This document shows positions 6,448-22,784 of a DNA stretch of 45,470 nt, in pieces (the stretch's first letter is position 1; each line of letters begins with the position of its first letter). The DNA lies in the NCBI GenBank assembly GCA_028577615.1, contig JAJSDU010000022.1, positions 1-45,470 on the forward strand. The letters run 5' to 3'. The notes below the pieces were generated by a model. It was not told where the DNA came from. It saw only the letters and a program-made list of their open reading frames with translations, and did not search any database. The translations under genes were made by a program, and so were the position numbers. The DNA is from Nitrosomonas sp. Lineage in GTDB: Bacteria; Pseudomonadota; Gammaproteobacteria; Burkholderiales; Nitrosomonadaceae.

Positions 6448-7146
6448 TTAATCGCTCTCAAACACGATAACAGGCGACAGGCTGCGTTGTAACAGCCACA
6501 GAACGGGAAGTGCCGGGTCAGCTTGTTTGACGAGTTGATTCAATAACCGGCGTTTGTTGGCACCTGTTGCGACTAGGACAACCTGTTCGCTCCGTGCGAG
6601 CGTCGCCAATGACAGGCTTATGCGAGGCGGTTCCGTGGGAACGGGCTTCACGGCGAGGCATAGCGACTGCGCTGCGTTATCCGGTTTTTCTTGCAGTCTC
6701 AGGCATGGAAACAGCGAAGCAATATGTCCATCCTCGCCAAGACCGAGGATGGTGAGCGTAAAAGGTTGCGATATTGCTGCAAGGCGTTGTGACACTTCTG
6801 GGATTGCCTGTTCGGGTGTGCTGTGCCGTGTTTTGAGGCTGACAAAATGAGCCTCTTCCGGTAAGAGATCAAGCAGGTTTTCTCTAACGAGCCGTTCATT
6901 TGAGTGTTCCGAGTCGGTGTCGACCCAGCGTTCGTCGCTCAAGGTGATCGTGACACGGCTCCAGGGCAGTGATTGTTTTGCAAGAACAGGGAGATAAGCG
7001 CGTGGCGTCCGGCCACCAGGGACAACAAGGCTTGCAGTCTGCTGCTTTTCGATCGCAAGCGATAAAACATCCGCCGCGTATTCCGCGAAACCGTGCGCCA
7101 GTTCTGTACTATTGGCAAAAGCGATTCTTCGAAGCCTGTCGTGCAT
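6448..7146 (-). CDS. pgl: 6-phosphogluconolactonase family protein
   Basis: A 232-residue protein of the 6-phosphogluconolactonase/NagB-like family. The N-terminal VPGGRTPRAYLPVL phosphate-binding segment, TLSDERWV and GLGEDGHIASLFP are the three hallmarks of Pgl (DevB). Pgl hydrolyses 6-phosphogluconolactone in the oxidative pentose phosphate pathway in the cytoplasm. Its position is unusual: it is the last gene of a six-gene, tightly spaced operon for an apparent 2-ulosonic acid pathway, 11 bp after the HAD phosphatase gene. It could be an ordinary Pgl that happens to be co-transcribed, or a sugar-phosphate lactonase or isomerase serving the glycan route. Family confidence is high; the pathway role is uncertain. 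Confidence 0.88.
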   Translation of the reverse strand: MHDRLRRIAFANSTELAHGFAEYAADVLSLAIEKQQTASLVVPGGRTPRAYLPVLAKQSLPWSRVTITLSDERWVDTDSEHSNERLVRENLLDLLPEEAHFVSLKTRHSTPEQAIPEVSQRLAAISQPFTLTILGLGEDGHIASLFPCLRLQEKPDNAAQSLCLAVKPVPTEPPRISLSLATLARSEQVVLVATGANKRRLLNQLVKQADPALPVLWLLQRSLSPVIVFESD

Positions 7147-7157
7147 GCGACCGTCTG

Positions 7158-7802
7158 TCAGGTGATCAGCTTGCTGAAATCGGTAACTACCGATGTTCCG
7201 GGAGGAAACGGGTTGCTATCGCCGGAGCGGACGCGACCAAGGAATGCAGTGCCGTTGGCTTGCGCGCCGGCGTAATCCGCCATGGCGTCGCCGATCATCA
7301 GGACATGTCCGGGATTGAGCGCATGATCAGCCAGAATTTCCGCGATCAATGTTTCTTTGAGCTTGGGTGCGCCGCGCACCTGTTTGAAATAGCCGGTTAG
7401 ACCACGGCGTTCAACGATGATCCTGAGCTCTGTTTCAGGCGTGCCTGAAGCCACAAACAGCGGCATTCTGCTGTGCTGCTGACGGATGAGCTCATAGGCA
7501 CCGGGAACAGCTTCGGCTGCGATGACGGCTTCCACGACGAGCTCGGAAAAACGCCAGTCAAGCGTCCGCTCTTCTTCGAGTGTCAGTGGCGGTCCGCTCA
7601 ATAACTGCTGCTGGAAATAGCGGAACTTGTTGTAGCGCGACAAACCGCCATTTTGCGTATGGTATTTAACGACTTCGGCAACGACTTCCGCGCCATAGGG
7701 GCGGTAAAGCGCCGCAAAAGCCTGCGTTTTAATATCCCCGGATTCCGCGATAACCCCGTCAAAGTCAAAGATGATGGCTTGGAAAGCTGTCAGATCAAAC
7801 AT
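7158..7802 (-). CDS. HAD-superfamily sugar phosphatase/phosphoglucomutase-like hydrolase
   Basis: A 214-residue HAD hydrolase. Motif I is FDFDGV with nucleophile Asp13 and acid/base Asp15, the motif II-like VASGTPE follows, then a conserved Lys in APKLKE and motif IV MIGDAMADY. The start is placed at 7802 (MFDLTAF) because the longer in-frame extension runs into the upstream epimerase gene and has no HAD resemblance; this leaves 13 bp to the epimerase stop. The length and helical cap suit the beta-phosphoglucomutase/Gph subfamily, which acts on sugar phosphates. In the operon it sits where KdsC, also a HAD enzyme, would act in the canonical Kdo pathway: removing phosphate from the ulosonic acid before CMP activation. 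That role is inferred. Confidence 0.85.
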   Translation of the reverse strand: MFDLTAFQAIIFDFDGVIAESGDIKTQAFAALYRPYGAEVVAEVVKYHTQNGGLSRYNKFRYFQQQLLSGPPLTLEEERTLDWRFSELVVEAVIAAEAVPGAYELIRQQHSRMPLFVASGTPETELRIIVERRGLTGYFKQVRGAPKLKETLIAEILADHALNPGHVLMIGDAMADYAGAQANGTAFLGRVRSGDSNPFPPGTSVVTDFSKLIT

Positions 7803-7815
7803 GCGGTCAGTTCGA

Positions 7816-8778
7816 TTATGCCCGGTTATCCGACGAGGAGGGTGTGGCGTCATCGTTTTCGTCCGCATGTTCCAGGTCTTGATGAATTTCGCGGATGCAG
7901 TCGAGCAGTCCCTGGCCAAGGTCAACATGTTCGTTGAGTACCAGCTTGCGGCCGATGCGCGGCTGGAATGCGTAGGGCGTAATTTCGTAGTGGTGAACGG
8001 CATTCGCTTCGTCAAAATGGAGTGTTATCGGCCACGGCATGATTTCAGAAATCATCGTCATGACATCGCGGATGCGCAGTTTTTCCTGGCCGGTCAGGAT
8101 GAGATGCCGGTTGGCATATTCCGGTGCAAGTACCTGTACGCTCAGACGCGCGGCGTCCTCGACATGAATATATTCACGCATTGCATTGCCGCTGCCTTTG
8201 TAGGTGATGGTGTGATGCATGATGGCCTCGCGCAGCATGCGGTAGATACCGTTGCGTCGGTCGCTGCGGCGGCCATACAGCGAGCCGTAGCGCAGAATGT
8301 TGTATTCGAGGCCGTAGCGGTCATGATAGGTTTCCGTAAAGCGTTCGGCTGCCTGCTTGCTGGCGCGGTAAAAAGAACCGGACTCCGAATAGACATATAC
8401 GCTGCTGGCAAAAATAAAGCGCCGTGCATGGGCCAGGCGCGCAGCCTCAAGCACATGCGTATTGCCGAGGACGTTAATCGCGGCGGTTGCCACCGGTTTG
8501 TTATGCGCTTCATCGATATCGGCGATGGCGGCGAAGTTGTACACAATATCAGCGCCTTTGACGGCATCAATGACCTGTTGCAGATCCATGATGTCGCCGA
8601 CGATCATATCCTGATCTCTTTTTTGAAAAGGAGAGGGGCTGCGGTCGAATAAGCGTACCTGATAACCTGTCGCCGAGAGTGCATCAGCGACATGACTGCC
8701 CAGAAAGCCACTGGCGCCGAATACAATAACAGTCTGACTGGCAGGTGGAAAATCAGGCGCTGTTTTGCTGTGCGTCAT
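7816..8778 (-). CDS. NAD-dependent sugar epimerase/dehydratase (extended SDR)
   Basis: A 320-residue extended short-chain dehydrogenase. The nucleotide-binding motif GASGFLG is at residues 21-27, and the catalytic pair is Tyr137 and Lys141 (YRASK), with Ser125/Ser126 just ahead. Such enzymes oxidise a nucleotide-sugar or related sugar at C4 and then epimerise, dehydrate or decarboxylate it. The start overlaps the end of the dehydrogenase gene upstream by 26 bp, showing translational coupling. A strong polypurine segment is not obvious at the start. The operon context suggests that it shapes the precursor of an unusual glycan sugar. The exact substrate cannot be read from sequence. Confidence 0.87.
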   Translation of the reverse strand: MTHSKTAPDFPPASQTVIVFGASGFLGSHVADALSATGYQVRLFDRSPSPFQKRDQDMIVGDIMDLQQVIDAVKGADIVYNFAAIADIDEAHNKPVATAAINVLGNTHVLEAARLAHARRFIFASSVYVYSESGSFYRASKQAAERFTETYHDRYGLEYNILRYGSLYGRRSDRRNGIYRMLREAIMHHTITYKGSGNAMREYIHVEDAARLSVQVLAPEYANRHLILTGQEKLRIRDVMTMISEIMPWPITLHFDEANAVHHYEITPYAFQPRIGRKLVLNEHVDLGQGLLDCIREIHQDLEHADENDDATPSSSDNRA

Positions 8779-9706
8779 GAATTATGCCTGTTTTGATGAG
8801 TCCGTGAAGTAAATTTTCCGCAGCTTCCAGTTCCATGCGCTGACGTGATTCGCGCGCCAGTGATCCAACGTGAGAAGACAGGATTAGGTTGTTGCATTGG
8901 AGTAATGGGCCCTGATAAGGTTCCTGTTCAAATGCATCCAGTGCTGCTGCAGCGAGTCGGCGATTGTCAAGCGCTGCCTTGAGCGCCTCTTCGTCGACCA
9001 GGCCGCCGCGGGCGGCATTGATGAGTAAAGCGCCAGGCTTCATCCGGGCTATCGCCTGAGCGTCGATCAGGTGGTGCAAATCAGGGTTGTATGGCGTATG
9101 CAGGCTGATGATATCGGCGGTTTCAAGCAGCTGTGTCAGCGGTTTTAGCGTAACACCCGCTGGCGCCTGGTCAATGCCGGGGTCATAGGCAATGACATCG
9201 GCTTCAAATGCCTGGCACAGTTTTGCGACGCGCTTGCCGATGTGGCCGAGACCGATCAATCCGACAGTCTGGGCGGCAAGCAGTCCGCCTTGCGTGCGCG
9301 GCCATTCGCCTTTGCGGATTTGCCGGTCTGTTTCGCAGATCCGTCTCAGGCTGGCCAGTATAAGTCCCAGAGTGAGCTCGGCGACAGCCTGTGCGGGGGC
9401 TTCCGGCGTGTTGTAGACGGCGATGCCATGGCTCCGGGCGGCAGCCAGATCGACGCTATCCATACCCGTGCCGCAGCGCGAAATGACTTTGAGGTTTTTT
9501 GCGCATTGGATCACGCGCGCCGTGAGCGGTTCAACGCCGGCAATCATGCCGATTACGTTTTCTTTCAGCAGTTCCGCGGCTTCGTCTTCGGTCAGCTTGC
9601 GGCTGTAGGGGTTGGTTACTGGCTGCAGGCCTGCCTGGATGAGGCGCTGGATGGCCGGGTTATTGGTAATATCAAATGATGATGTGGAAATGATAAATGT
9701 ATACAT
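8753..9706 (-). CDS. D-isomer-specific 2-hydroxyacid dehydrogenase (phosphoglycerate dehydrogenase-like)
   Basis: A 317-residue NAD-dependent dehydrogenase of the SerA/GyaR family. The Rossmann motif GLGHIG lies at 152-157, followed by NAARGGLVDEEAL with the catalytic Arg and by LSSHVGSLA with the catalytic His. The N-terminal RCGTGMDSVD segment is typical of phosphoglycerate dehydrogenase. It lacks the C-terminal ACT domain of long SerA forms. Its start lies 5 bp after the aldolase gene and its end overlaps the epimerase gene. In this operon it could make or reduce a 2-keto or 2-hydroxy acid that feeds the aldolase; a plain serine-pathway role is less likely given the neighbours. The substrate is inferred only. 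Confidence 0.86.
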   Translation of the reverse strand: MYTFIISTSSFDITNNPAIQRLIQAGLQPVTNPYSRKLTEDEAAELLKENVIGMIAGVEPLTARVIQCAKNLKVISRCGTGMDSVDLAAARSHGIAVYNTPEAPAQAVAELTLGLILASLRRICETDRQIRKGEWPRTQGGLLAAQTVGLIGLGHIGKRVAKLCQAFEADVIAYDPGIDQAPAGVTLKPLTQLLETADIISLHTPYNPDLHHLIDAQAIARMKPGALLINAARGGLVDEEALKAALDNRRLAAAALDAFEQEPYQGPLLQCNNLILSSHVGSLARESRQRMELEAAENLLHGLIKTGIIHDAQQNSA

Positions 9707-9711
9707 AACAC

Positions 9712-10473
9712 TTACAGAAATTCCCGTATTCGTTGCATGTGGCTGCGGCAGATGGAATCCAGAATGCGGATATCCAGACTGTAGCCCAGAAAGTTAAAGC
9801 CCGATTGAATGCGTTGCTGCAATGCTTCAATATCGGGTTCGATAACATGGATGCCGCCGGGCTTGCCGGCGCGTTTTCCAGCCTCGAGTATACGGTTGAT
9901 GGCTGTCTGCACATCGGGGTGATCCAGATCGCCAGGGCGGCCCATGGAGCCCGAAAGATCATAGGGTCCGATGATATAGGCATCGATGCCGGGCACTGCA
10001 AGAATCGAGTCAATGGCATTGACGGCGTCAATATGTTCGATCATGACGACAATCACGGCATTCTGCTCAAGCCATTGCTGGTAGCTCCGGAAGCTGGCAC
10101 CAAATCCCTGTGCGCGAGCGAGTCCGACGCCGCGTTGACCGCGCGGCGGATAGTAAACCGCGTCGACAGCTGACCGGGCGTCTGCCGCTGACTTGATCAT
10201 GGGCACCATGACGCCTGTTGCGCCGGCATCCATGACGCGCTTGATCTGGTCGGGATGGTTGGACGTCAAACGCGCAATCGCCGGGCACTGCCTGCCGTCC
10301 AGCACTTGGATGATTGTTTGAACTTCGTTGAGTTCTAGGACGCTGTGCTCCATGTCGAGCACCAGCCAGTCGAAGCCCGCCGAAGCCATAATTTCCGCAA
10401 TCGCGGTATGCCCCAGCGTTATCCAGGAACCGATGGTGATTTCAGATTGTGCGAGTTTTGTTTTGAGTTGCAT
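9712..10473 (-). CDS. HpcH/HpaI family class II aldolase
   Basis: A 253-residue metal-dependent aldolase of the HpcH/HpaI/GarL family. The family residues line up well: His43 in DMEHS, Arg68 in ARLTSNHP, metal ligands Glu146 (MIEHIDA) and Asp172 (GPYDLSGS), each offset by two or three from E. coli HpaI numbering. These enzymes reversibly join pyruvate, or another 2-keto acid, to an aldehyde to give a 2-keto-3-deoxy (or 4-hydroxy) acid. It lies 18 bp after the KdsB-like gene. Adjacent placement of an aldolase making 2-keto-3-deoxy acids and a cytidylyltransferase activating such acids suggests that it makes the sugar acid backbone in place of a PEP-using KdsA. This direction of reaction is an inference. 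Confidence 0.88.
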   Translation of the reverse strand: MQLKTKLAQSEITIGSWITLGHTAIAEIMASAGFDWLVLDMEHSVLELNEVQTIIQVLDGRQCPAIARLTSNHPDQIKRVMDAGATGVMVPMIKSAADARSAVDAVYYPPRGQRGVGLARAQGFGASFRSYQQWLEQNAVIVVMIEHIDAVNAIDSILAVPGIDAYIIGPYDLSGSMGRPGDLDHPDVQTAINRILEAGKRAGKPGGIHVIEPDIEALQQRIQSGFNFLGYSLDIRILDSICRSHMQRIREFL

Positions 10474-10491
10474 GACTTCCAGATATCAGGA

Positions 10492-11241
10492 TTAATAGCG
10501 GGACAACAATATATCGTTTTTCATGAATTCGGCAACCCGCGCCAGATCAGCTTCGGTATCGACGGCCTGTGTATTGAATTCGGTCGGCACCATTCTGACT
10601 TTGTAGCCGTGTTCAAGCAGCCGCAGCATATCCACGGATTCCAGCTGTTCCAGCGGTGTCGGCGGGAGGTGTGTGTAGCGGAACAGCATGTCGCGGCGAA
10701 ACGGAATAATGCACACCTGTTTGTATGCTGCGGTTTGCGGGAAACCGGCCTTGGCCAATGTGGGTATCGGTTGGCGTGACATGTAAATGGCGTTATTGGA
10801 TCGATCCATGACGACTTTGATTGTGTTGGGATCACGAAAATCCGATTCCTGTTCGATGCGGCGTACCAGATTGACACAGCCGATTTCGGGATCATCCGCA
10901 AAAGGTTTGACTGCGGCGTCAATCATGTCCGGGTGCGTCATCGGTTCATCGCCCTGCACCATGACAATCAGATCGGCTTCCAGTTGATCAACGGCTTCGG
11001 CCACCCGGTCGCTCGCGCGTTCATGCGTGTCGGCAGTCATGATAACGGGCGCGCCGAAATCTTCGGCAGCCTGACGTATTTCTTCGTCACAGGTTGCAAT
11101 ATAGGTTGCATCTAGCACTGTGCTCAGTGCGACACGCTTGTAAATATGCTCTATCATGGGACGGCCCAGAAGCGGCGCGAGCGGTTTGCCGGGATAGCGT
11201 GTTGATCCCATCCGGGCGGGTATGACAGCGATTGTTTTCAT
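10492..11241 (-). CDS. KdsB-like cytidylyltransferase (CMP-ulosonic acid synthetase), divergent
   Basis: A 249-residue nucleotidyltransferase. The N-terminal PARMGSTRYPGKPLA CTP-binding segment and VQGDEP (95-100) match KdsB, which activates Kdo as CMP-Kdo. Two places known to face the sugar in KdsB differ from the E. coli sequence as I recall it: HQSGTER is HERASDR (73-79) and HLGIYGYR is QVCIIPFR (~175-182). The C-terminal TQAVDTEADLARV matches the usual VDTPEDLERV. It heads the six-gene minus-strand operon, 355 bp from the divergent glycosyltransferase gene. It is probably a paralogue for a different 3-deoxy-2-ulosonic acid, with the housekeeping kdsB elsewhere, but it may still act on Kdo. 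Confidence 0.85.
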   Translation of the reverse strand: MKTIAVIPARMGSTRYPGKPLAPLLGRPMIEHIYKRVALSTVLDATYIATCDEEIRQAAEDFGAPVIMTADTHERASDRVAEAVDQLEADLIVMVQGDEPMTHPDMIDAAVKPFADDPEIGCVNLVRRIEQESDFRDPNTIKVVMDRSNNAIYMSRQPIPTLAKAGFPQTAAYKQVCIIPFRRDMLFRYTHLPPTPLEQLESVDMLRLLEHGYKVRMVPTEFNTQAVDTEADLARVAEFMKNDILLSRY

Positions 11242-11596
11242 CAGATTGTTATATCAGTAGGGTATAGGTGGTACATGTGATAAGGTTTTTTTGAGCATCT
11301 TTTTGAGATGTCCGGGCGCAGCAGTTTTATTATCCGATTTATCCATCAATCAGAGCAAGTTTATTCGGATGAATAGCGCAGTATCGATGCATTTCAAAGA
11401 ATGAAGTTGTTTGGTTGCGACAGTCTCACACAGAATTTAGCGTAGTATCTGTGGCTGCTGGCGTAGTGACCGGCGCGCGTGTAGAATTGGCGGGAATTTT
11501 CTTGCGGACATCAATGCAGGTGGCTGTTCGTGCGGCGAAAAGCGGTATAGTTCGTATTATTTTTTTAATCATCAAACTTACGTTTATGTTCAAGGG
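11242..11596. other. Divergent intergenic region between ulosonic-acid operon and transferase cluster
   Basis: This 355-bp stretch lies between two divergently transcribed sugar gene sets and must hold promoters for both. No gene or family-level motif is visible. A TATAGT hexamer (11546-11551) could be a -10 element for the plus-strand gene, but no good -35 lies 16-18 bp upstream. The last bases before the plus-strand gene are AAGGG, directly abutting the ATG. Confidence 0.35.
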
Positions 11597-12871
11597 ATGA
11601 AAGCCCTTTTTTTTCTTCGTCATTATAATGACATCGATCACATTGCACCGGTGATCTATAAATGGGCAATAACAGGCCATCAATGTGATGTCGTGCTGCT
11701 CGGCTCGGCCAGATTTCGCTACGATTACCGTATTCAGTATCTTAAGCAGCTTTCCGGCGTGCGTGTTGCGCATATCAGGGAGGCGCTGGGCTGGCGAAAT
11801 TTCCTTATGTGGCGTCTGCAGACGTACATGCTGACCGGTAATGTCAGGCGCATACCGGTGCTCGGATTATTAGCAGCGCGATTGTCGGAACGGTATGATC
11901 AGGCCTGGCGCGAGCAATTGTGGCAAAAAACAACTGCTATGTTGCTGACGCGCTGTTTCGGCGATGCCGATAGCGGAGTGATCACATTTGACTGGGTGGA
12001 AAGGAACTCGGTTATCAGCGTTGAATGGATAAAAATATTGATAGCGATGGCGCATGCCAGAAAAATGCGCGTGATCTCATTGCCGCATGGAGACAGTCCG
12101 CATATCAATCAGTTGATCCGCCGTGGCGAAAGAAAGGTGGGGCCGGATACCGTGTTTTCCAATGCGGATATTTTTGACCGGCTGGTTGTGCCGAATGAAT
12201 TGTGCGCAAAACGTTTCCGTCCTTTTCTGGATGAAAAAAAGATTGCCGTCCTGGGTTCGCCGCGTTTTTGCGCGGAATGGCTTGCCAGATTGAATGAAAT
12301 TTTACCGCCGTCACCGATCAAGTGTTCGGACAGCCGGTTAAAAATCGTCATGTTTCTGAGAAAGGCGAATTTCACGACGTTCTGGGAAGAGGTTGCCGAA
12401 GTCGTTCATCTGATCGCCGAGCTGCCGGGAACGGAAATCATCATAAAACCGCATACCCGCAGTGGATGGAAGCAGTCGCTGACTAAGGACAAATCAATTA
12501 AACAGTTGCCGAATGTCAGTATCGCCGACGACAATGCGCATTCCGCGCACTTGATGAACTGGTCCGATGTCATTATCGATCTCGCCACTTCGGTGATTTT
12601 TGAGGCCGTGAGAACGAAAAAACCGGTGCTGGCCGCGGATTATCTGATTGCGGGACGCTCGACGGTTGCCTGCTACATGCCGGAGACAGAACTCCGTTGC
12701 CGCGATGATGTGTATGAAAAAATCAATCATTTTCTAAACAAAGGTTGCGATGATTTTTATGTCGAGGCGCATCGACAGCGGTTTTTGCGGGAAATGCTCG
12801 ATGTGCCGGATGAGAACGTTCTGCAGCATTACGTGACACTGCTGGAAGAATCCGCTGAAGAAACGGACTGA
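11597..12871 (+). CDS. Putative GT-B glycosyltransferase / CDP-glycerol glycerophosphotransferase-like protein
   Basis: A 424-residue protein with no signal peptide or obvious membrane helix. The C-terminal half has the layout of the CDP-glycerol glycerophosphotransferase and capsule Kdo-transferase folds: a KIVMFLRK strand, EIIIKPHTR, a NVSIADDNAHSAHLMNWSDVIID segment and a SVIFEAVRTKKPVLAADY loop. This pattern marks the donor-nucleotide half of a GT-B fold. The first ATG is used; AAGGG touches it with no spacer, so the true translation signal is unclear, but no other in-frame start is better. It starts the plus-strand cluster opposite the CMP-sugar operon and is a natural candidate for the transferase of that sugar. 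The subfamily call is tentative. Confidence 0.62.
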   Translation: MKALFFLRHYNDIDHIAPVIYKWAITGHQCDVVLLGSARFRYDYRIQYLKQLSGVRVAHIREALGWRNFLMWRLQTYMLTGNVRRIPVLGLLAARLSERYDQAWREQLWQKTTAMLLTRCFGDADSGVITFDWVERNSVISVEWIKILIAMAHARKMRVISLPHGDSPHINQLIRRGERKVGPDTVFSNADIFDRLVVPNELCAKRFRPFLDEKKIAVLGSPRFCAEWLARLNEILPPSPIKCSDSRLKIVMFLRKANFTTFWEEVAEVVHLIAELPGTEIIIKPHTRSGWKQSLTKDKSIKQLPNVSIADDNAHSAHLMNWSDVIIDLATSVIFEAVRTKKPVLAADYLIAGRSTVACYMPETELRCRDDVYEKINHFLNKGCDDFYVEAHRQRFLREMLDVPDENVLQHYVTLLEESAEETD

Positions 12872-12970: not shown

Positions 12971-13080
12971 ACACCGCTGTTTAAAAAATATTTTCCTGCC
13001 TGTCCACCCATGCTGTATTAACAATTTTTGTCCTCGTCTCATTTTTTATTTAAAACACTGAATTTTTAGGGATGTCCTTT

Positions 13081-13863
13081 ATGCCGTTAAATGCGCTGCT
13101 GAATTTTTTTAAGAATTGTGTTGTCGCGTTTTATCAGTTAATCGGCGGTTTTACCCGGACTACTGTCAGGGGCTTGCCTATCCGTATTGCCATTGATCAC
13201 TGGCGAGTGCTCAAGCGCGCCAGAACCTATGCAATCAAAGAGCCGGATACGCTGGACTGGCTCGATCAATTCAAACCGGATACCTGCTACTTTGATATTG
13301 GAGCGAATATCGGCCAGTATTCGCTGTATCCGGCAAAAAAATATGACGGGGCTGTGCGGGTGTTTGCTTTCGAGCCACAGAGCAACAACTATTATTCCCT
13401 GAATAAGAATATTTTTATCAACAATCTGGCTGAAATTATTGCCTCGTATTGCATTGCGGTTTCCGGTAAAACCGAGTTTTCCAAATTGTATATCCCGAAG
13501 TTCATTCCGGGCGGGAATCGTTCCCAGTTTGGCCGCGAAGACGTCCGAAACATGAAAATGCCCGCCACCCATATTCAAGGCATGTTTGGCGTCACGCTGG
13601 ATGACTTATGCGGTCAGTGGGGATTTCCTTATCCCAACTACATGAAAATTGATGTGGATGGAATAGAGATTCCGATTTTGAAAGGTGCCGAAAGGGTATT
13701 GCGAAATCCGCAGCTTGTTTCGGTCATTATCGAACTGGGAACGGCTGAGGAACAACAGGAAGCGGTGCAATTAATGCAAGCGGCTGGTTTCCAGGTTAAG
13801 CATAAGACCACCCGGAACTGGGGTGAAACCTGTTTTATATTCGAGCGTCAATCATTGCGATAA
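13081..13863 (+). CDS. FkbM family SAM-dependent methyltransferase
   Basis: A 260-residue methyltransferase of the FkbM family. The SAM-binding motif FDIGANIGQYSL is followed by the acidic FEPQ and later by the family mark YMKIDVDGIEIPILKGAE. An ATG at 13072 is also in frame, but AGGG (13068-13071) directly abuts it, whereas the ATG at 13081 has a 9-nt spacer; 13081 is therefore preferred. FkbM enzymes O-methylate sugars or polyketides, and are common in polysaccharide loci. Here it lies between the transferase and the O-antigen ligase-like gene, so methylation of the glycan made by this locus is the likely role. Substrate is unknown. Confidence 0.87.
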   Translation: MPLNALLNFFKNCVVAFYQLIGGFTRTTVRGLPIRIAIDHWRVLKRARTYAIKEPDTLDWLDQFKPDTCYFDIGANIGQYSLYPAKKYDGAVRVFAFEPQSNNYYSLNKNIFINNLAEIIASYCIAVSGKTEFSKLYIPKFIPGGNRSQFGREDVRNMKMPATHIQGMFGVTLDDLCGQWGFPYPNYMKIDVDGIEIPILKGAERVLRNPQLVSVIIELGTAEEQQEAVQLMQAAGFQVKHKTTRNWGETCFIFERQSLR

Positions 13864-13872
13864 TGTGTCCTT

Positions 13873-15114
13873 TTGATATCCGGCATTTTTATTAATCGAA
13901 TCGCTTTGTCAGGTTTTATACGGTCAAGCGCATCGCATCGGGAAATTCTGATCAGAGTCGTTCTGATCGCTTTTTGTCTTGGCCTGTGGTTTGGCATACT
14001 GTACGCATTTCTTGTTGTTCTGCTGGTGCTGGCATGGCTGCTGGATGGCGGGCACAAAAAATTATGGCTATTGCTGAAAGAACCATTAGTGCAGGCTATC
14101 GGTATTTTTTGCTGCCTTTTGTTGTTGGGACTCTTCTGGGCTGAAACATTTCTGGAAGGACGGCATAAGTGGACAAAATACCTGCTGTTGCTGATTTATA
14201 TCCCATTCCTGAGCCTGCTCAATCAACAACGCTTGCCTTGGGTCATGGGTGCCGCAGGCGCGGGGTTCGGCCTGGTGCTGCTAGGCGGGCTTTATGCCTG
14301 GCTGGTTGAGCAGCAACAGGGCATACCGCTGTTTAATATGACTTATCTGACATTTTCAGCTTTATTGGGCACCGCCAGTGTTTTTTTATGCTGCTGCGCA
14401 TGTATGAGCCGGAATCGAATGTTACAGATACTGTTTTTTTCGCTGGCGCTGGTGTTTCTATATCTGCAATTCCAGCAAAGTGCGCGTAGCTTCCTGCTGG
14501 CGACACTGGCAACTCAGGTGATCGTATTAATGATTTACTTTCGCGTATCGTTACGTACCCTGGCACAGATTACCGGATCAGTATTGCTGGTGGTGATCGC
14601 TTTTGCCTACACCAGTCCGGTTATTTCGGAAAGATGGCTGCAGGCCAGACTTGATTTCGAAAACATCCGGTTGGGGCAGTACAACAATAGTATCGGCTAT
14701 CGCCTCGCGTTGTGGGATGTGGGGTTGCAAGGCATCGCGGAAAAGCCTTTTTTAGGTCATGGCACGGGAATGCCGGAACGGTATTTTGACCAGGCTGTTG
14801 TGCATTATAAAAATGGAATTTATGCGAATCTGCCCATGTTTCAGCAGACATCGCATTATCATAACGACTGGATAGAAATCGGCATGCATTTGGGCGCTTT
14901 GGGGGTAACGTCATTCATGTATTTGCTATGGGCATGGTACAGAGTGCTGGCGCAGAATCGGCTGGATCTGCCGGCGGTGGCAATGGTCAGTTTTGTGTTT
15001 TTTTCAGGATTGACAGAAACGTTTCTGGTTTTTGCGCGCATGCCGGTTTTTTTGCTGGTGATTACGGCAATCGCGGTCAGCTGGCAAAGATTGCGATTGA
15101 ATCCTGTTGCATAG
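13873..15114 (+). CDS. O-antigen ligase / Wzy-like polymerase membrane protein
   Basis: A 413-residue integral membrane protein with about ten to twelve hydrophobic segments. A large periplasmic loop near residues 250-330 contains GHGTGMPERYF and HYHNDWIEIGMHLGALG, the signature region of the O-antigen ligase (Wzy_C, PF04932) family. Such proteins polymerise or ligate undecaprenyl-linked glycans on the outer face of the inner membrane. The start is uncertain: the frame opens with TTG at 13873, ten bases after the FkbM stop, and no ATG lies close by. Ligase (WaaL) and polymerase (Wzy) cannot be told apart from sequence alone. It supports a surface-glycan role for this locus. Confidence 0.85.
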   Translation: MISGIFINRIALSGFIRSSASHREILIRVVLIAFCLGLWFGILYAFLVVLLVLAWLLDGGHKKLWLLLKEPLVQAIGIFCCLLLLGLFWAETFLEGRHKWTKYLLLLIYIPFLSLLNQQRLPWVMGAAGAGFGLVLLGGLYAWLVEQQQGIPLFNMTYLTFSALLGTASVFLCCCACMSRNRMLQILFFSLALVFLYLQFQQSARSFLLATLATQVIVLMIYFRVSLRTLAQITGSVLLVVIAFAYTSPVISERWLQARLDFENIRLGQYNNSIGYRLALWDVGLQGIAEKPFLGHGTGMPERYFDQAVVHYKNGIYANLPMFQQTSHYHNDWIEIGMHLGALGVTSFMYLLWAWYRVLAQNRLDLPAVAMVSFVFFSGLTETFLVFARMPVFLLVITAIAVSWQRLRLNPVA

Positions 15115-15160: not shown

Positions 15161-15850
15161 ATGACTGATTTAAAAAACCCAACATCCGAAAATACGAATA
15201 GCATTATTCCGGTACACCCCGCGATAGAAGCCTATATGCGAGGTCTGGTCGGAAAAACGGATGATCCGGTTCTGTTGGCAATGGAAGAACTGGCGAGGCA
15301 GAAGAACTTTCCGATTGTTAACAGGCTGGTCGGTATCTTTCTTGAAACACAGGCAGCTATGGTGGGCGCAAAGCGCGTTTTCGAGTTTGGCAGCGGGTAT
15401 GGTTATTCGGCATACTGGTTTGCACGTGCGGTTGGTAGCGATGGACGGGTGATCTGCAGCGATGGCAAACAGGAAAATAAAACGCGCGCGGAACAATTTT
15501 TGACATCAGCAGATCTCTGGGAGCGGATTACGTTCAATGTCGGCATGGCGCAGGATGTTTTTGCGCAGACCGATGGTGTTTTCGATATCTGTTATAACGA
15601 TGTCGATAAGGGTGGTTATCCTGAGGTGTGGCATATGGCTAAAGAGAGGATTCGTCCAGGCGGACTTTATATTGCAGACAATGTGCTTTGGCATGGTCGT
15701 GTGGCTGCTGAAGTGTATACAGACGTCGAACTGGGCTGGACAGAAGCTATCGTGGAGCATAACAGGCTTATTTTTGACGATCCTGAATTTGATGCGTTTA
15801 TCAATCCAACGCGTGACGGCGTTCTTGTCGCGCGCAGGAGAAATGATTAA
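15161..15850 (+). CDS. Class I SAM-dependent O-methyltransferase (family 3-like)
   Basis: A 229-residue cytoplasmic methyltransferase resembling the metal-dependent O-methyltransferase family 3 (COMT/YrrM type). The SAM motif VFEFGSGYGYSAYWFA is at residues 73-88; the metal-site region FDICYNDVDKGGYP (~141-154) and PGGLYIADNVLWHGRV (~166-181) give Asp147, Asp173 and Asn174 as candidate ligands. GAGGTAGAG just before the ATG at 15161 is a good ribosome binding site. It is the last gene of the plus-strand glycan cluster, 46 bp after the ligase-like gene, but members of this family also act on small catechol-like molecules, so glycan methylation is only one option. Confidence 0.85.
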   Translation: MTDLKNPTSENTNSIIPVHPAIEAYMRGLVGKTDDPVLLAMEELARQKNFPIVNRLVGIFLETQAAMVGAKRVFEFGSGYGYSAYWFARAVGSDGRVICSDGKQENKTRAEQFLTSADLWERITFNVGMAQDVFAQTDGVFDICYNDVDKGGYPEVWHMAKERIRPGGLYIADNVLWHGRVAAEVYTDVELGWTEAIVEHNRLIFDDPEFDAFINPTRDGVLVARRRND

Positions 15851-21186: not shown

Positions 21187-21249
21187 TATCGATAAATAAG
21201 CTCGATTCTGATTTAAATTTTCACCGTGATGTAGAGTTTTTCCACCGTG

Positions 21250-21325
21250 CTGAGGAGCGCTGCAACGGGATGTTCCGTGAGGCTCAGTGGTGTGGAGTTG
21301 TGTGATTAAAGTAACAACGGCGCTC
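21250..21325 (+). ncRNA. SAH riboswitch upstream of ahcY
   Basis: The segment holds the conserved core GAGGAGCGCTGCAACGGG (21252-21269) and the distal CAACGGCGCTC (21315-21325), as in the S-adenosylhomocysteine riboswitch (Rfam SAH_riboswitch). CTGAG (21250-21254) pairs with CTCAG (21283-21287), ACGGG (21265-21269) pairs with TCCGT (21274-21278) inside that helix, and GAGCGC (21255-21260) pairs with GCGCTC (21320-21325) to make the pseudoknot. The ahcY ribosome binding site AAAGGAG starts 11 nt after the aptamer. In known cases SAH binding turns the downstream SAH hydrolase gene on, giving feedback relief when the toxic product of methylation builds up. Confidence 0.92.
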
Positions 21326-21350
21326 TTTCCAAGTTAAAGGAGATAGATTA

Positions 21351-22784
21351 ATGAGTGCTGTGCTTAATGCTGATAAAAGAAGTTTCACTGATTATAAGGT
21401 TGCGGATATTGCACTGGCTGAATGGGGGCGCAAGGAAATTGCTATAGCCGAAACTGAAATGCCCGGTTTAATGGCTGTGCGAAAAGAGTATGCTGATGAA
21501 AAGCCGCTCGCCGGTGCGCGGATTGCCGGTTCTTTGCATATGACAATTCAGACGGCGGTGCTGATTGAAACGCTGGTGGCGTTGGGTGCGGAAGTTCGCT
21601 GGGCATCGTGCAATATTTTTTCCACGCAGGATCATGCTGCTGCTGCAATAGCCGCTCGCGGTATTCCGGTTTTTGCGTATAAGGGTGAATCGCTTGACGA
21701 TTACTGGGATTACGCACATCGGATTTTTGAATGGACTGTCGATGGTGAGCCGGGCAATGCCAATATGATTCTTGATGATGGCGGCGATGCAACTTTGCTG
21801 TTAATTCTGGGCAGCAAAGCCGAACAGGATGGCGGAGTTATTGCTAATCCTACCAATGACGAGGAGCGTGCTTTGTATGCTTCGATTAAAAAGAGACTTG
21901 CCAGCGAACCCGGTTGGTATTCAAAAAAACTTGCGGATATTCATGGTGTAACCGAAGAAACTACTACTGGCGTGCACCGTCTCTACGAGATGCATAAAAA
22001 AGGCGAATTACCATTTCCGGCCTTTAATGTGAATGACTCTGTGACCAAATCAAAATTTGATAATTTGTATGGTTGTCGCGAGTCATTGGTTGACGGCATC
22101 AAGCGCGCCACTGACGTGATGATTGCCGGAAAAATCGCGGTGATCTGTGGTTACGGTGATGTGGGTAAGGGGTGTGCGCAATCATTGCGCGGTCTTGGCG
22201 CAACAGTGTGGGTAACCGAGATTGACCCAATCTGTGCACTGCAGGCGGCGATGGAGGGTTATCGTGTTGTGACGATGGATGATGCCTGCGATAAAGCTGA
22301 TATTTTTGTCACAGCGACAGGGAATTTGAGAGTGATTACGCATGATCATATGCTGAAAATGAAAAATCAGGCGATTGTGTGCAATATTGGGCATTTTGAT
22401 TCGGAGATTGATATTGCAGCTGTACAAAAATATCAATGGGAAAATATTAAACCTCAAGTTGATCATATTATTTTTCCGACAGGACGCAGAATTATTGTAT
22501 TGGCGCAAGGCAGGCTGGTTAATCTGGGGTGTGCAACCGGTCATCCATCGTTTGTCATGTCAAATTCGTTTACGAATCAGGTACTGGCGCAAATCGAGCT
22601 TTGGTGTAATGGCAATAATTATCAGAAGGCTGTGTATGTGTTGCCCAAGCATCTGGATGAAAAAGTTGCTAGGCTGCATTTAAGTCAGTTAGGTGTGAAA
22701 TTGACCGAGCTGACTGATGAACAGGCCAAATACCTTGGACTGGATAAAAATGGTCCTTACAAGCCGGAAATGTATCGCTATTAA
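21351..22784 (+). CDS. ahcY: Adenosylhomocysteinase (SAH hydrolase)
   Basis: A 477-residue NAD-dependent enzyme that splits S-adenosylhomocysteine into adenosine and homocysteine. It has [20 protein letters not shown] and [18 protein letters not shown] in the catalytic domain, [16 protein letters not shown], the NAD site [13 protein letters not shown] (~267-279) and the C-terminal KPEMYRY. The length includes the ~40-residue insert typical of proteobacterial forms. The gene lies directly behind the SAH riboswitch, which probably controls it, and has the strong ribosome binding site AAAGGAG. Confidence 0.98.

Follow-up and report, generated by a model that had tools for sequence, protein, structure and literature searches.

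The contig JAJSDU010000022.1 of Nitrosomonas sp. (assembly GCA_028577615.1; genome of 2.6 Mb, 90.5% complete), whose 45,470 nucleotides are hereafter referred to as the window, carries an operon of six genes on its minus strand. These genes encode a cytidylyltransferase of the KdsB family, an HpcH/HpaI-family aldolase, a 2-hydroxyacid dehydrogenase, a short-chain dehydrogenase/reductase (SDR), a haloacid dehalogenase (HAD)-family phosphatase and a protein of the 6-phosphogluconolactonase (Pgl) family (Table 1). Here, we compared this operon with its relatives in other genomes. Based on this comparison of sequences, the operon probably makes an ulosonic acid that is activated with cytidine monophosphate (CMP) and that differs from 3-deoxy-D-manno-octulosonic acid (Kdo), the aldolase taking the place of the synthase that depends on phosphoenolpyruvate (PEP). 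The linkage of the genes is conserved, the cytidylyltransferase pocket is altered, KdsA and WaaA are absent from the genus, and LpxC is absent from the family. An aldolase route to a CMP-activated ulosonic acid had been proposed in a first-pass annotation of the window. The comparative evidence supports that proposal well, but the Pgl gene proved to be optional and no parallel Kdo pathway was found.

The six family names given in the first-pass annotation agree with Pfam and NCBIfam, and its gaps of 18, 5, -26, 13 and 11 bp between the genes were obtained again from the coordinates of the open reading frames (ORFs). The start of the HAD gene is an ATG codon within a longer TTG ORF (7158-8015) of the mechanical ORF list. 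KdsA is absent from the window, as had been noted: the only match to the KdsA profile in the genome lies on another contig, scores 44.8 bits against a cut-off of 314, and fits models of 3-deoxy-D-arabino-heptulosonate 7-phosphate (DAHP) synthase. Neither NeuB nor KdsD was seen in the window on inspection of the ORF list, no profile search having been made for either.

Conservation of the operon in the Nitrosomonadaceae

The aldolase was found in all 37 genomes of the genus that were searched. For the KdsB family, 60 of 61 genomes gave a match, the exception (genome G072) being 90% complete. Ten of the 11 same-genus genomes with long flanks have the complete six-gene order. In the remaining one (G028, locus L110) the SDR is truncated (7123-7284) and the HAD and Pgl genes are missing, while the first three genes are intact. 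Locus L203, apparently from the same genome, has the same truncation and loss (10678-11244), which may reflect a genuine deletion or an error of assembly.

When 84,980 species genomes were scanned with the alignment of the aldolase, 525 relatives were obtained, of which the best 80 comprise 46 loci from the Nitrosomonadaceae and 34 others. Among these 80, the complete six-gene order is found in 27 of the 32 Nitrosomonas loci, a count that takes in L181 and L204. The first five genes are in order in 13 of the 14 other Nitrosomonadaceae loci, which have no Pgl gene in the stretch. Of the six incomplete loci of the family, five reach a contig end, and the sixth is L203. Relatives with the same operon include Nitrosomonas and Nitrosospira, the Nitrosospira-type loci being without Pgl. 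This conservation of gene order is far beyond chance. KdsB, aldolase, dehydrogenase, SDR and HAD form a conserved unit, hereafter the cassette, whereas Pgl was rejected as a core member because it is missing from the other Nitrosomonadaceae loci.

The cytidylyltransferase has a divergent pocket

The KdsB-like protein of the window has a cytidylyltransferase domain in which the QGDEP motif and the paired metal-binding aspartates are present. It scores 310.3 bits against PRK13368 (cut-off 255) and passes the subfamily models PRK05450.1-5; it fails the kdsB equivalog model TIGR00466, with 149.8 bits against a cut-off of 155.2. Residues D98 and D228 are invariant in its alignment (A3). Two conserved aspartates are described for KdsB in excerpts of PMC3149649, and excerpts of PMC7717453 name the FSR and RHIGVYAYR motifs as substrate-binding on the basis of docking.

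Pocket typing covered 108 of 111 KdsB matches, three of at most 200 amino acids having been left out; L243 and L244 repeat genes of L163 and L193. The 108 rows fall into two types with zero overlap. The module type (81 rows) has Q in the KQVCIIPFR motif and D-M in ES[VI]DM. The housekeeping type (27 rows) has H in [RKGL]HxG, and E-Q (26 rows) or E-L (one row) in ExLEQLR. Most module rows retain the FSR motif, in the form FSR, YSR or MSR. The window protein has the two motifs listed in Table 1 instead of the RHIGVYAYR-like and ELEQLR-like ones of a Kdo pocket. In a tree of 71 KdsB rows, which included nine of the 46 Nitrosomonadaceae loci and the window, all 27 housekeeping rows fall to the same side of a branch supported at 100/99; the row nearest to that of the window, at 93% identity, is from Nitrosomonas sp. 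The motifs and this branch bear out the "divergent KdsB" of the first-pass annotation and support a departure of the pocket from the Kdo type.

Kdo and lipid A genes in the genus and the family

The searches described here were run with named controls, Escherichia coli (E. coli) included, which were positive where expected. By profile search, KdsA was above its cut-off in none of the 61 genomes of the genus, as opposed to 23 of 24 genomes from other families of the order. Matches below the cut-off occur in 45 of the 61; those of 100 bits were rejected as KdsA, for the two representatives that were checked both fit DAHP-synthase models, and one of them lies between hisC-like and prephenate-dehydrogenase-like genes. 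WaaA was found in none of the 61 (controls positive in 3 of 14, E. coli included), and LpxC in none of 120 genomes of the family, from four genera. Since WaaA is missing from the genus and LpxC from the family, no lipid A acceptor is expected. LptD is present in all 61 family genomes searched for it (loci L245-L247 among them), although LpxC is in none of the 120.

The first-pass annotation had suggested checking for a separate and complete Kdo set elsewhere in the genome. None was found: KdsA and WaaA are absent and the KdsB-like protein of the operon is the only KdsB above the cut-off, KdsC and KdsD not having been searched for. Of the refuting case that the annotation had named, a sole copy active on Kdo, the first half therefore applies, but activity on Kdo is disfavoured. 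With no KdsA or WaaA in the genus and with different pocket motifs, we rejected the protein as a housekeeping Kdo enzyme.

According to excerpts of PMC3087551, lpxK alone among the nine Kdo2-lipid A genes is present in N. europaea, and a term search of that text gave no mention of KdsB or KdsA. Orthologues of ceramide and phosphosphingolipid genes are reported for N. eutropha in excerpts of PMC11324152. The operon is mentioned in neither set of excerpts.

The aldolase and its partner enzymes

The aldolase belongs to the HpcH/HpaI superfamily by its Pfam domain, and its residues D40, H43, R68, E146 and D172 are invariant over 11 rows; we take them to match the catalytic and metal-binding residues of HpaI. 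It shares its Pfam family with HpaI, GarL and YfaU (RhmA), whose solved structures it matches at about 150 bits. However, it lies well under the curated equivalog cut-offs (187.1 versus 368.8 for HpaI, 175.6 versus 406.75 for GarL, and 146.7 versus 441 for rhamnonate aldolase). It also differs from them by a C-terminal H-x-x-E-P motif, most often in the form G-I/L-H-x-x-E-P, which is common in the cassette aldolases and found in none of nine other rows. The aldolase tree was made by a quick method and has several long branches. One of the relatives of the aldolase in the Protein Data Bank (PDB) is named a hydroxyketoacid aldolase.

The closest PDB relatives of the dehydrogenase are phosphoglycerate dehydrogenases, and a 2-ketogluconate reductase is also among them. 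Its residues R233, E262 and H279 are invariant (alignment A6, with L103 and L107 left out). The YxxxK and glycine motifs of the SDR are invariant in alignment A2, as are D13, D15, S119, K149 and D172 of the HAD enzyme in alignment A4.

The cassette outside the family

In 29 of the 34 loci from other families among the best 80 of 525, which were picked by the aldolase alone, a KdsB homologue lies at most 4.7 kb from the aldolase, and in many outside loci KdsB is nearer to the aldolase than it is to the other genes. The outside KdsB-aldolase loci belong to several phyla and include records of Desulfarculus, Thermodesulfovibrionia, Magnetococcales, Achromatium, Omnitrophota, Elusimicrobia, Acidobacteria, Nealsonbacteria, Peptococcaceae and Dehalococcoidia. 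The linkage is thus conserved in the Nitrosomonadaceae and recurs in distant bacteria. The thresholds for KdsB-aldolase proximity, for the subtype partners described below and for the gene-order counts were chosen by ourselves. KdsA was above the cut-off in 25 of the 34 non-family genomes with an aldolase locus, and at least 21 of them also have a housekeeping-type KdsB.

A strong aldolase match was found in 12 of 398 genomes of a phylum sample. Ten such loci were fetched (the window and G006 excluded): five have an adjoining KdsB and four have no partner at all, while in G297 the genes for the dehydrogenase, the SDR and the HAD enzyme are present with no KdsB in the stretch. As a negative control, nine HpcH-family loci from weaker aldolase matches were taken, and their fetched stretches contain no KdsB homologue. 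The same-order aldolase homologues L098-L102 were rejected as cassettes, and so were L130, L131, L132 and L134. Plasmids gave one aldolase relative (42%) and no KdsB at E 1e-50, phages four KdsB relatives (34-37%), and viral contigs one aldolase relative (39%).

Five of the 39 outside loci, three of which are closely related, have a Pgl-family gene next to the cassette; an assumed density of one such gene per 3.3 Mb would predict about 0.2. In L143, L146 and L150 this gene adjoins the dehydrogenase. The recurrence hints that a lactonase may be useful to the cassette. A LIC12162-family protein, a candidate transferase, is encoded in seven of the 39 far loci (L138, at 157-1905, and six more).

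Two subtypes of the cassette

Outside the family, the cassettes could be divided by the residue at the fourth place of the KQVC motif, which is either C (C-type, n=19) or G (G-type, n=12). The SDR is found in 18 of 19 C-type and in none of 12 G-type loci (Fisher 9e-8, kinship ignored), and the HAD enzyme in 14 of 19 and none of 12, respectively (Fisher 9e-5, kinship likewise ignored). Conversely, an oxidoreductase of the Gfo/Idh/MocA family occurs in 10 of the 12 G-type loci and a GmhA-like sugar isomerase (SIS) protein in six; neither was seen in the 19 C-type loci. These counts are suggestive of a pocket and a pathway that changed together. As the G-type loci usually carry a Gfo/Idh/MocA protein, and sometimes a GmhA-like isomerase, in place of SDR and HAD, the products of the cassettes are probably a small set of related sugar acids.

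Proposed pathway and alternatives

In the pathway that we propose, the SDR, together with Pgl where it is present, would help to prepare an aldehyde precursor. The aldolase would join this aldehyde to a C3 2-oxo acid, either pyruvate or hydroxypyruvate. Because hydroxypyruvate is a possible donor, given the hydroxyketoacid aldolase among the PDB relatives, the phosphoglycerate-dehydrogenase-like enzyme could supply it. The HAD enzyme would then remove a phosphate, the divergent KdsB would couple the free ulosonic acid to CMP, and the neighbouring glycosyltransferase may transfer the sugar onto a surface glycan.

Several observations weigh against this pathway. HpcH/HpaI aldolases usually act in degradation. 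The failure against TIGR00466 is not general, as two of four other KdsB proteins of the module pass this model and two do not, and the NCBI subfamily models name module and housekeeping types alike KdsB; public annotation thus hides the difference between them. One KdsB in a cassette locus (L126, 10098-10952) is of the housekeeping type and has a very long branch; its genome, G163, also has KdsA, and the protein is a second, strongly divergent housekeeping-type KdsB close to the cassette. Five of the 34 outside loci (L144, L153, L157, L186 and L214) have no KdsB, and two of these are well inside a contig. When relatedness is taken into account, the link between subtype and SDR loses its significance, with two to three independent pairs, none contrary, and a median sign-test p of 0.5. 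Furthermore, most outside loci are from metagenome-assembled genomes, and single taxon assignments may be wrong: L143, titled Bacteroidia, is nearly identical to the two betaproteobacterial loci L146 and L150, and its contig is probably mis-binned.

Other explanations were considered. The aldolase could make Kdo itself from pyruvate and D-arabinose, with the divergent KdsB activating ordinary Kdo. Such a bypass is imaginable, since the genome has a single KdsB above the cut-off and the genus has no KdsA. It is nevertheless quite improbable: without WaaA in the 61 genus genomes and LpxC in the 120 family genomes a lipid A acceptor is not to be expected, every one of the 81 module-type rows differs from the housekeeping KdsBs in its pocket, and 25 of the 34 other genomes with an aldolase locus have KdsA as well. 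Somewhat more plausible, but still unlikely, is an oxidative route, in which the SDR oxidises an aldose or its phosphate to a lactone, Pgl opens the ring, the dehydrogenase oxidises C2, and the aldolase has another role such as retro-aldol trimming. The 2-ketogluconate reductase among the dehydrogenase relatives and the excess of Pgl genes beside outside cassettes (five of 39, three close kin, versus about 0.2 expected) agree with this route. However, the aldolase served as the query that led to the outside loci, and in many of them KdsB is closer to it than to the other genes; moreover, G-type loci have no SDR of that family and Pgl is missing from most loci.

The changes at several positions of the pocket could also mean that the KdsB fold has turned to a wholly different substrate, and that CMP is attached to an acid other than an ulosonic one. 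Against this highly improbable case stand the FSR motif, kept in most module rows, and the aldolase, as the products of aldolases are 2-oxo acids, the kind of substrate on which KdsB-type enzymes act. It is scarcely credible that the genes are neighbours in loose association only and share no pathway: accessory genes do differ between loci, but the order is conserved and recurs in distant bacteria.

The aldolase route to a CMP-activated acid other than Kdo can be placed in a wider scenario, which we offer tentatively and hold to be rather doubtful. The Nitrosomonadaceae may have swapped a lipopolysaccharide of lipid A and Kdo for a lipid A-free glycolipid exported through LptD, perhaps sphingolipid-based, whose inner sugar would be the new ulosonic acid made by the cassette; relatives of the cassette in numerous other bacteria, annotated as Kdo enzymes, would make related acids.

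Comparison with known systems

In Kdo biosynthesis (KdsD, KdsA, KdsC and KdsB, with transfer by WaaA), a KdsB-family enzyme likewise attaches CMP to a 2-keto sugar acid, and an HAD phosphatase takes part. The cassette differs in its HpcH/HpaI aldolase, in the changed pocket motif, and in the lack of KdsA and WaaA from the 61 genus genomes. Nonulosonic acid pathways (NeuB/NeuA, legionaminic, pseudaminic) also activate an ulosonic acid with CMP for surface glycans, and they condense with PEP. In contrast, no NeuB is among the six operon genes by Pfam and NCBIfam, the genome not having been searched for it, and the KdsB of the window scores 40 bits against the PseF profile (cut-off 205.7). The Kdo8N pathway of Shewanella (KdnA, KdnB and KdsB) has a KdsB with a changed sugar, and there an oxidoreductase and an aminotransferase modify finished Kdo; the present operon has no aminotransferase, and KdsA is absent. 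To the published loss of lipid A in N. europaea and the published sphingolipid genes of N. eutropha, the present analysis adds the universal LptD and the cassette.

No description of this gene set was found in the literature, as judged from titles, abstracts and passages. The terms KdsB, HpcH and cytidylyltransferase co-occur in one of the papers found, which describes a Halomonas genome.

If the proposed pathway is correct, one group of public genes labelled kdsB makes no CMP-Kdo, and a bacterial route to a CMP-ulosonic acid goes through an aldolase rather than a PEP-dependent synthase. It would also give a handle on the outer-membrane cover of the ammonia-oxidising Nitrosomonadaceae, which are without LpxC (and, in the genus, WaaA) yet have kept LptD. 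Candidates for study are the cassette, the glycosyltransferase beside it and the Wzy_C protein.

Genes next to the operon

A group of genes on the plus strand, divergent from the operon, has family matches related to surface glycans (Table 1). Of the 44 Nitrosomonadaceae loci that could be assessed, 42 have the putative glycosyltransferase as a divergent neighbour of the cassette. This glycosyltransferase is present in just six of the 11 long-flank loci of the genus, the N. europaea-like group being without it, and two far cassette loci, L202 and L207, contain homologues. By profile it has no PDB relative even at E 5, and hence no tie to the Kdo-transferase fold could be made. The Wzy_C gene is near the cassette in 10 of the 11 long-flank loci and was not seen in L113.

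Table 1 Predicted features of the operon and of the adjoining genes in the window.
Feature	Position	Strand	Evidence
KdsB-like cytidylyltransferase, divergent, predicted non-Kdo type	10492-11241	minus	PF02348 165 bits; pocket motifs KQVCIIPFR, ESVDMLR
HpcH/HpaI-family aldolase, own subfamily	9712-10473	minus	PF03328 124 bits; subfamily motifs, tree
D-isomer-specific 2-hydroxyacid dehydrogenase, phosphoglycerate-dehydrogenase-like	8753-9706	minus	PF02826 188.5 bits, PF00389 84.7 bits
Extended SDR, NAD-dependent epimerase/dehydratase family; linked to C-type cytidylyltransferase	7816-8778	minus	PF01370 149.8 bits
HAD-family phosphatase, beta-phosphoglucomutase/phosphoglycolate-phosphatase-like	7158-7802	minus	PF00702 and PF13419
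6-phosphogluconolactonase (Pgl) family protein, optional member	6448-7146	minus	TIGR01198 165.9 bits, cut-off 124.45
Putative glycosyltransferase, candidate user of the CMP-sugar	11597-12871	plus	weak BFO_1060-family match, 29.5 bits, cut-off 200
FkbM-family methyltransferase	13072-13863	plus	PF05050, TIGR01444
O-antigen ligase/polymerase family membrane protein (Wzy_C)	13873-15114	plus	PF04932 54.4 bits
O-methyltransferase near Wzy_C gene	15161-15850	plus	PF01596 91.7 bits

Elsewhere in the window, an S-adenosylhomocysteine (SAH) riboswitch (21246-21332, 56.5 bits) lies directly upstream of an adenosylhomocysteinase-like ORF at 21351, which is an ordinary arrangement.

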